Assembly (NCBI GenBank): GCA_003222155.1
Contig: QHUU01000054.1
Location: forward strand, 1-64,000
DNA from: Gemmatimonadota bacterium
GTDB lineage: Bacteria; Gemmatimonadota; Gemmatimonadetes; Gemmatimonadales; GWC2-71-9
Reading direction: 5' to 3'
Length of the DNA stretch: 64,000 bases
The notes under the pieces were generated by a model. That model saw only the letters and a list, made by a program, of their open reading frames with translations, had not been told where the DNA came from and ran no database searches. A program made the translations under genes and the position numbers. The number at the start of each line of letters is the position of its first letter. The stretch's first letter is position 1. Shown piece by piece: positions 8,517 to 11,047 of this stretch.

Positions 8517-9161
8517 ATGTCCCATCCTCAGTTCCCGAACCTGACGGTGCTGACGCATCCGCTCATCCAGCACAAGCTCGCCATCCTGCGGGACAAGAAC
8601 ACCACGACCAAGGACTTCAAGCAGCTCGTGAACGAGATCGCCATGCTGATGGCGTACGAGGTCACCAAGGACCTGCCGCTCGAGCCCACGGACGTGGACA
8701 CGCCGCTCGAGCACACGCGGGGCGTGCGGGTGGCGGGGAAGAAGCTCGCGCTCGTGCCGATCCTGCGCGCCGGACTCGGCATGGTGGAGGGGATCGCGCA
8801 GCTGATCCCGTCGGCGCGCGTGGGGCACATCGGCATCTACCGCGAGCACGACACGCTCCAGCCCGTCGATTACTACTTCAAGATCCCCGAAGGGCGCGAC
8901 GCGCGCGACTTCTTCGTGCTCGACCCGATGCTGGCCACGGGGGGCTCGGCGGTGGACGCCGTGAGCGCGCTCAAGCACGCCGGCGCGCAGCGCATCCGGT
9001 TTCTCTGTCTCGTCGCGGCGCCCGAGGGCACGCGCCGCATGCTCGAGCACCACCCCGACGTGCCGATCTTCGCCGCGGCGCTCGACCGCGAGCTGAACGA
9101 GCACGGCTACATCCTCCCGGGGCTGGGAGATGCGGGGGACCGGCTGTTCGGAACGCGCTAG
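8517..9161 (+). CDS. upp: Uracil phosphoribosyltransferase
   Basis: [36 protein letters not shown] motifs. Confidence 0.96.
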
Positions 9162-9177
9162 GGGCCCCGATCCCCAG

Positions 9178-9206
9178 TTGACATTTAACGTCACTTTTGT
9201 ATTTTA
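9178..9206 (+). promoter_or_regulatory. Putative sigma70-type promoter TTGACA-N16-TATTTT upstream of the SatD-like gene
   Basis: TTGACA at 9178-9183 and TATTTT at 9200-9205, in an AT-rich island within GC-rich DNA. Confidence 0.6.
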
Positions 9207-9249
9207 TGACGTAATTCGTCATATCAAACAAATGTGACATAAAATGTCC
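9179..9249. promoter_or_regulatory. Three phased 15-bp palindromic operator-like sites
   Basis: TGACATTTAACGTCA (9179-9193), TGACGTAATTCGTCA (9207-9221), TGACATAAAATGTCC (9235-9249); starts exactly 28 bp apart. Confidence 0.8.
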
Positions 9250-9858
9250 AAACGCTACGCCGCCCTCATCGCCGACGCGACGGCCTCCCGCCTGCTCCCG
9301 CCCGCCCGCCGCGCCCGGCTGCAGGCGGACGCCCGCGCCGCCGCGCAGCAGCTCAACCGGCGCTACGCCCGCGTCCTCGCCGCCCGCTTCGCCGTCACAC
9401 TGGGCGACGAGCTGCAATGCCTGCTCGCGGGCCCCGAGCCGCTGTGGGAGATCGCGCACCAGATCCGCGCCCGCCTCCCCGCGGTCGATTGGATCGTCGC
9501 CTGCGGCCTCGGAGCCATCAGCACACCCCTCGCACCCACCGCGCCCGAGATCGACGGGCCCTGCTTTCACCAGGCCCGCGCCGCCCTGGACCGCGCCAAG
9601 CGGCTGCGGCTGGTCTTCGCGTTCGGCGGTTTCCCCCCGGCGCTCGAGCCGCTCGCCAACTACTACGCCGGCCTGTACTGGAGCTGGACCCCGCGGCAGC
9701 GGCGCACGGCGACGCTGCTCCGCCTGGGCGACCCCGCGGCGGCCGCGGCCGTCCTGGACGTCGACCGCAGCGCCGTTTCCCACCTCGCCCGCCGGATGGC
9801 CTGGCCCCTCGTCGCGGCCGGCGATAAGATGTTTCGGACCCTGCTGGAGACTGCGTGA
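9244..9858 (+). CDS. SatD-like protein with C-terminal helix-turn-helix
   Basis: N-terminal MSKRYAALIADATASR...; C-terminal RQRRTATLLRLGDPAAAAAVLDVDRSAVSHLARRM resembles HTH. Confidence 0.65.
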   Translation: MSKRYAALIADATASRLLPPARRARLQADARAAAQQLNRRYARVLAARFAVTLGDELQCLLAGPEPLWEIAHQIRARLPAVDWIVACGLGAISTPLAPTAPEIDGPCFHQARAALDRAKRLRLVFAFGGFPPALEPLANYYAGLYWSWTPRQRRTATLLRLGDPAAAAAVLDVDRSAVSHLARRMAWPLVAAGDKMFRTLLETA

Positions 9859-10406
9859 ACCCGCTGTTCGTCGTCCCGCTGCTCGCCTACACGCTCGCCG
9901 CCACCCTGTGGCCCGCCCAGGTGGACGGCCGCCGCCGCGCCCGCACCCTGCTTGCCGTCGAGGCGCTGCTCGTGGCGGCGGCCCTCGTCGTGGGCACGCT
10001 ACTGGCCCCGCTCGCGACCCCGAACCACGCGGGGCTGTGGTGGGGGCGGGCTGCCCTGCTCGCGACCGGCTACCTCTACGTCTCGGGCCGGGGCAGCGTG
10101 CTGATCCGCAGCGTGCTCGAGCTGTCGTCGCTCCAGATGCGCCGCGACGAGGACCGCACGGCGGGCGCGATCGACGTGGCCCGGGGGCGGGCGATCGGCG
10201 CGCTCGAGCGCGCCCTCGCCCTCACCCTCGTGCTGCTGGGCGAGTATGGCGCCGTGGGCTGGATCATCGCGGCCAAGTCGCTCGCGCGTTTCAAGGCCCT
10301 CGAGGAGCGCGAGTTCGCCGAGTACTTCCTGATCGGCACGCTCGCGTCGTTCCTGCTCGCCGTACTCGCGGGCGTGGGACTGCGCGCGCTGCTGCATCAG
10401 GGCTGA
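9855..10406 (+). CDS. Membrane protein resembling the C-terminal part of DUF3307 proteins
   Basis: RAIGALERALALTLVLLGEYGAVGWIIAAKSLARFK...EYFLIGTLASFLLA; overlaps the upstream stop. Confidence 0.6.
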   Translation: MNPLFVVPLLAYTLAATLWPAQVDGRRRARTLLAVEALLVAAALVVGTLLAPLATPNHAGLWWGRAALLATGYLYVSGRGSVLIRSVLELSSLQMRRDEDRTAGAIDVARGRAIGALERALALTLVLLGEYGAVGWIIAAKSLARFKALEEREFAEYFLIGTLASFLLAVLAGVGLRALLHQG

Positions 10407-10504
10407 CCCCTCCCCCCCTCCCCCCTCCCCGGTCCCGCGTCTCCCGCCACGCAACTCTCCCAGGTCCGGCTGTGTCAGACGTTTAACCGTCGCCCCGGAG
10501 CCCG

Positions 10505-11047
10505 GTGGACGAACGCGAACTGATTGCCAGGGTCCGCGCCGGGGACGGCGCCGCGGAGCGCACCCTGTACGACGCCCACGTGGACCGGGTCTACCGCCTC
10601 GCCTACCGGCTCGCCGGGGACGACGACCTGGCGCGGGAGTTCACCCAGGACACGTTCGTCCGGGCGTTCGAGCGGCTGGCCTCGTTTCGCGGCGAGGCGA
10701 AGCTCTCCACCTGGCTGCACGCCATCGCCACGTCGGTGGTGTTGAACGGGCTGCGCAAGGTGAAGCGGTTTCACCGCCGCGAGGCGGACCTGGACGATGC
10801 CGCCGGGGTCGCGGCCGGCCGGCGGGCCGCCGAGCCGGATCTGAAGCGGCGCCTGGCGCAGGCGATCGACGACCTGCCGCACGGCTATCGCACGGTGTTC
10901 GTGATGCACGATGTCGAGGGTTACACGCACGAGGAGATCGGCGCGTCGTTGGGGGTCGAGACGGGAACATCCAAAGCGCAACTGTCGCGAGCACGCGCCC
11001 GGCTGCGGGAAGCGCTCGCGGACTTCGCGGGAGAGTGGGCCTCATGA
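10505..11047 (+). CDS. ECF RNA polymerase sigma factor
   Basis: Sigma2/sigma4 motifs: ARVRAGDGAAERTLYDAH, REFTQDTFVRAFERL, DVEGYTHEEIGASLGVETGTSKAQLSRARARL. Confidence 0.92.
   Translation: MDERELIARVRAGDGAAERTLYDAHVDRVYRLAYRLAGDDDLAREFTQDTFVRAFERLASFRGEAKLSTWLHAIATSVVLNGLRKVKRFHRREADLDDAAGVAAGRRAAEPDLKRRLAQAIDDLPHGYRTVFVMHDVEGYTHEEIGASLGVETGTSKAQLSRARARLREALADFAGEWAS

Follow-up and report, generated by a model that had tools for sequence, protein, structure and literature searches.

The three palindromic sites that cover the promoter and start codon of a satD gene in a Gemmatimonadota genome are very likely the operator of an autorepressor, the SatD protein itself, which would act on an operon of satD and an overlapping membrane-protein gene. 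Members of the SatD family are probably transcription repressors of their own gene and of the membrane gene that follows it, because satD arrays with a 28-29-bp repeat and differing sequences are found in both bacteria and archaea. The window analysed here is a stretch of 64,000 nucleotides from a 3.4-Mb Gemmatimonadota soil metagenome assembly (G000). A preliminary description of this DNA had proposed direct autoregulation by SatD; to this we add the apparent family-wide geometry of the array, the predicted nucleotide-cyclase fold of the N-terminal domain of SatD, and the overlapping membrane gene as a likely co-regulated target.

Results

Three palindromes span the satD promoter

The array lies between upp and the beginning of satD (Table 1). 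As originally reported, its three palindromes follow one another at start-to-start steps of 28 bp; a promoter scan likewise places a TTGACA -35 element under site 1 and a TATTTT -10 element just ahead of site 2 (10/12 matches for the TTGACA-16 bp-TATTTT combination), and the satD ATG falls within site 3. The AT-rich character of this island is also evident, with local GC dropping to 42-51% against 63-83% in the surroundings. From the promoter elements we infer that transcription starts at about 9211-9213, inside site 2. No terminator is predicted at the satD promoter, and RNA attenuation was rejected on this ground.

Table 1. Genes, promoter elements and putative operator sites around satD in the window.
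Feature	Coordinates	Strand	Remarks
upp, uracil phosphoribosyltransferase	8517..9161	+	Pfam UPRTase, E 2.7e-76; ends 17 bp before site 1
-35 element TTGACA	9178..9183	+	Overlaps the first half-site of site 1
Putative operator site 1, TGACATTTAACGTCA	9179..9193	.	Kept in 21/21 orthologues
-10 element TATTTT	9200..9205	+	16 bp past the -35 element; promoter scan
Putative operator site 2, TGACGTAATTCGTCA	9207..9221	.	Over the inferred transcription start; kept in 21/21 orthologues
Putative operator site 3, TGACATAAAATGTCC	9235..9249	.	Includes the satD ATG; kept in 21/21 orthologues
satD	9244..9858	+	PF16264; predicted palm domain ~1-130 and C-terminal HTH ~150-185
Membrane-protein gene	9855..10406	+	4-bp overlap (GTGA) of its start with the satD stop

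Three points of the earlier account needed adjustment. The consensus first given for the sites is improved upon by TGACRNWWWNYGTCA, which fits better and frequently has R and Y flanks. The spacers, said to be unrelated, do share little identity among orthologues (45.7%), but spacer 1 is not free to vary, since it holds the loosely conserved -10 element (ta.aTT). Finally, the term 'phased' is correct for the constant number of base pairs between sites but not for the face of the helix: 28 bp corresponds to 2.67 helical turns, so that neighbouring sites are rotated by about 240 degrees. Across the whole window the motif was matched nine times with at most two mismatches (0.82 expected), and six of these matches are the three sites, each read on both strands. 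A single imperfect look-alike palindrome, GACGTTTAACCGTC, is found at 10478-10491, just before an ECF sigma factor gene at 10505; as there is no array at this position, it was rejected as an operator of the sigma factor gene and is taken to be a chance occurrence.

SatD is predicted to join a cyclase-like palm domain to a helix-turn-helix

The window protein is a member of the SatD family (PF16264; E 1.7e-11, 44.6 bits against a cut-off of 29, residues 5-116), which takes its name from Streptococcus mutans secretion and acid tolerance D. Its AlphaFold2 model (pLDDT 95.3, pTM 0.90) has an N-terminal part that Foldseek matched to class III adenylyl/guanylyl cyclases and GGDEF domains, the best PDB matches being Ma1120 (4wp9, E 6.6e-4), Rv1900c and bPAC, with TM scores of up to about 0.56 normalised by target. 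A model of SatD from a second clade (L083, pLDDT 92.5) agrees with that of the window protein in both the palm fold and the C-terminal HTH, and matched Cas10/Cmr2 palm domains, PucR-type regulators, cyclases and the Panoptes mCpol protein OptS. Weak Pfam GGDEF_2 matches were also obtained for two SatD members. The N-terminal region is accordingly predicted to be a palm domain of the class III nucleotide cyclase/GGDEF type.

Two aspartates, D11 and D55, are invariant both in 29 bacterial sequences and in a set of 19 that includes archaea, and R112 is invariant or nearly so in SatD alignments. Predicted secondary structure, used here in place of a superposition, puts D11 where strand 1 ends and D55 within the hairpin of strands 2 and 3. 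In the cyclase/GGDEF superfamily these are the positions of the two metal-binding aspartates. The expected place of the transition-state asparagine, assigned without residue-level superposition, is occupied in SatD by H, W, A or T, which leaves catalysis uncertain.

The HTH-like C-terminus noted previously finds support in the structure models, in which helices of the window protein at 150-161, 164-171 and 175-184 are modelled with pLDDT >90, and in weak HTH family matches. Several SatD relatives gave HTH and sigma-region-4 matches in Pfam, all of them weak, and a sequence-profile search of the PDB with SatD likewise returned weak HTH matches only (YlxM 1s7o and NarL). A PucR-type HTH was not among the matches listed for SatD members, which cover the first 25 of 37 families. 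A search for SatD in phages found none.

Sites and spacing are strictly conserved among family orthologues

SatD orthologues are present in 22/101 genomes of the GTDB family, and 21 of their loci have upstream DNA that can be read and were used for comparison of the array. The preliminary description had made conservation of the sites and their spacing in related genomes a check on its model, and this conservation proved strict: every one of the 21 readable loci carries three sites at exactly 28+28 bp. Pairwise identity among these arrays is 98.6% in the TGAC/GTCA arms, 68.9% in the site middles and 45.7% in the spacers. Near-identical arms beside diverged spacers indicate that the array is kept by selection on the sites and on their spacing.

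The surrounding elements are less constant. TTGACA occupies the place equivalent to that in the window in 19/21 orthologues, the -10 element is only loosely conserved directly before site 2, and neither the start codon nor upp lies at a constant distance from the array. At three loci (L023, L024 and L027) the start codon is shifted to the 5' edge of site 3, which itself keeps its position in the array; that site 3 stays while the start codon moves argues that the DNA sites, and not the start codon, fix the layout. In a further genome satD appears to be broken, its halves matching separately in different frames (L028/L030; G062:C52 18786-19245), and its three-site array is intact.

This conservation also bears on the sign of the regulation. 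At two loci (L025 and L027) a -35-like TTGAC lies downstream of site 1, which means that the array can sit partly upstream of a promoter, and the palm-domain fold would permit a switch by a ligand; SatD might then bind the array as a nucleotide-dependent activator or as a dual regulator. We consider this unlikely, since in 19/21 orthologues the sites have the geometry of a repressor, lying over the -35 element, the start point and the start codon.

The array is confined to satD

A pattern of two sites at a 28-bp step was scanned over 103 genomes of the family. It was found at satD in 20/22 of the satD-bearing genomes. In one of the exceptions (G019) a single base of site 2 is changed, and in the other (G089) the contig cuts satD off. 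Five of about 80 family genomes without satD contain a match, in each case single and GC-rich, and one genome (G052) has one further isolated repeat of the pattern. The reversed pattern, used as a control, gave 0 matches over the same 103 genomes. The array is tied to satD and, beyond chance matches, is absent from the approximately 80 satD-less family genomes.

A genome-wide scan for a regulon, suggested in the earlier account, was also carried out, and no regulon was seen. The four near-matches found elsewhere in the own genome (contigs C59, C78, C82 and C110) are single and all lie within ORFs, and they were rejected as regulon targets. A motif with one address in the genome is what would be expected of a dedicated autoregulator.

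A 28/29-bp step recurs at distant SatD loci

Distant SatD genes in other Gemmatimonadota families were collected with the Pfam profile, and together with loci from haloarchaea, Alphaproteobacteria and others they made up a set of 16 loci whose upstream DNA was compared with itself (best ungapped self-match at each lag from 18 to 60). Mean self-similarity was 7.0 at lag 28, 9.1 at lag 29 and 5.3 at lag 58, which is twice 29, against 3.0-4.6 at the remaining lags; 616 control windows from the same loci gave a mean of 4.7. Against dinucleotide shuffles, 13/16 loci had p < 0.04 (Fisher p 2.7e-16), although only part of this set is an independent test because the first ten loci were those in which the 28/29 lag had come to notice. 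The loci added later (L111, L112, L114, L115, L117 and L118) agree with it.

The repeated sequences differ from clade to clade. In other Gemmatimonadota families the palindromes upstream of satD repeat at 29 bp, and they read TTGGyn..CCAA (L083, L085 and L088), GTCAACC/GGTTGAC (L082 and L084), AAAGCGn4CGCTTT (L087), TTGTAn..TACAA (L086) and GAAACn..GTTTC (L090). Haloarchaeal plasmids have four GTTCGn10CGAAC palindromes before satD, arranged as two 29-bp pairs, and two single matches elsewhere on each plasmid; on two of these plasmids (L112/L113) the step between the pairs is 47 bp, which is no multiple of 29. On a Natronosalvus plasmid, ACAACCn6GGTTGT occurs twice at a 29-bp step, and TTAnCCC..GGGnTAA arrays on Sphingomonas and Agrobacterium plasmids have a 28-bp step. 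Judged from these upstream sequences, the geometry of the array would be a trait of the SatD family as a whole while the site sequences differ, with four loci not clearly following it. The self-similarity test detected no array at L116 (Fusobacterium) or at L119 (Aerococcus, inside an operon), and L089 gave a signal at lag 58 only. A locus found after the lag test, L120 (G500:C130), has a weak 29-bp repeat that is confounded by a hairpin. Here a 16-bp inverted repeat, AGATAAGCCTTGTGTG / CACACAAGGCTTATCT, lies in the satD leader about 125-80 bp before the gene match, and it could be either a hairpin or two overlapping operator sites.

Similarity of the recognition helix tracks similarity of the operator across SatD loci (Mantel p 0.0008, with half-sites picked by hand). 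Once overall relatedness is taken into account the partial r is 0.19, and being confounded by relatedness this covariation is only supporting evidence.

The alternative that some other, unlinked regulator binds the sites, for example a global factor of the TetR or GntR type, with satD merely its target, draws on the fact that the binding protein cannot be read from the sequence by itself and on the weak HTH similarity of SatD. We judge it improbable, because the array accompanies satD exclusively, is not found in relatives that have no satD and stands on no other promoter in the genome, and because the 28/29-bp geometry goes with SatD into archaea and other bacteria despite the changed sequence of the sites. 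Less probable still is a role of the repeats in the transcript or in DNA structure (leader hairpins, or a replication or partition site): each palindrome could form a short hairpin and the L120 leader holds one of 16 bp, but site 1 is outside the transcript, as it overlaps the -35 element, a constant step across diverged spacers agrees with protein contacts, and the arrays are found at a single-gene promoter.

Discussion

Autoregulation by SatD is supported by its exclusive co-occurrence with the array, by the lack of sites at other promoters in the genome and by the recurrence of the 28/29-bp step upstream of distant satD genes. Binding of SatD to the sites, repression through that binding, cooperativity and the signal would together make up the following model, which we infer from these comparisons. 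A SatD dimer would bind each palindrome, and neighbouring dimers held 28 bp apart would probably touch each other, so that the array would fill as a unit. The filled array would cover the -35 element at site 1, the start point at site 2 and the start codon at site 3, blocking RNA polymerase at -35 and +1 and shutting off both satD and the overlapping membrane-protein gene downstream. Release would likely be signalled by binding of a nucleotide, or of its product, to the palm domain. The step stays constant even where a different sequence is recognised, which points to contact between proteins as what determines it.

Multi-site operators of autorepressors are a known kind: in arrays such as lambda OR, several spaced palindromes over one promoter are read by the gene's own product. 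The SatD arrays differ in that the sequence recognised changes, whereas a step of 28 or 29 bp is retained in bacteria as well as archaea. What is new here is a candidate regulator family whose putative operator keeps its geometry in bacteria and archaea alike; the literature searched does not describe the family in this role. In that literature acid tolerance is the one subject with which SatD is connected, and neither DNA binding nor a cyclase fold nor an operator is ascribed to it.

Proteins of the Mycobacterium Rv0386 group are larger than SatD and have a LuxR-type HTH, and we know of no counterpart of the 28/29-bp array for them. Like SatD, these proteins, described as combining a cyclase homology domain with a LuxR HTH (PMC3466318), hold a class III cyclase fold and an HTH in one polypeptide. 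The PucR/CdaR regulators matched by the L083 model (BAD_0249, 3onq; Rv2242, 9f80) also have a palm-type (GGDEF-like) sensor domain followed by a C-terminal HTH, although their domain arrangement differs from that of SatD, as the alignment rmsd is near 15 A. The SatD locus further resembles the Pycsar and Panoptes defence modules, in which two genes encode a palm-domain protein (a cyclase or mCpol) and a membrane protein, and Foldseek matches of the SatD models include the cyclic UMP synthase 7r65 and the Panoptes protein OptS (9pd0). Unlike these modules, SatD has an HTH and an operator array, and there is no PADLOC match to Pycsar or Panoptes components.

Within the locus, the 3' end of upp precedes the array in most family orthologues, and upp is no part of the system beyond this Gemmatimonadota family. 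The gene after satD is the closer companion, directly following it in nearly all SatD loci and usually overlapping it by 4 bp; from this arrangement, it is likely co-repressed with satD. In the window its product has about three hydrophobic segments by hydropathy and falls into no Pfam, NCBIfam or PADLOC family; a PADLOC search with SatD and the membrane protein returned no match except a negligible one to Csx19 (E 0.0067). In haloarchaea the membrane partner is a DUF3307 protein, and throughout the Gemmatimonadota family of the window it is one without an assigned family.

A broader reading, which we offer tentatively and think somewhat unlikely to hold in full, is that SatD belongs to the switches of the cyclase/GGDEF/mCpol kind, sensing or making a nucleotide, and at the same time represses its own gene and restrains a potentially harmful membrane partner, in a two-gene module of bacteria and archaea whose recognised sequence drifts on a 28/29-bp lattice imposed by the protein. 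In Streptococcus pyogenes, satD is essential in transposon screens yet found in only 178/249 genomes, so that about 29% are without it (PMC11323703). At least in the part of that report drawn on here, the pattern is left unexplained; it would fit a repressor that guards against a harmful operon partner, and is in line with the autorepressor model as well.

The model gives a testable role to a family so far annotated for 'secretion and acid tolerance', including this essential-yet-accessory streptococcal gene, and it suggests that the palm domain of class III cyclases has come to serve as sensor in a widespread repressor. It also provides a clean case in which the geometry of an operator outlasts its sequence across domains of life, and since the operator can be read for every SatD clade separately, sequences offer a way to study the recognition code of the HTH. 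The membrane partner is an obvious target for study. On the Aerococcus tenax plasmid (L119), a pair of genes with ribonuclease-domain and barstar products comes first, then satD, and then a gene for a DUF975 membrane protein.
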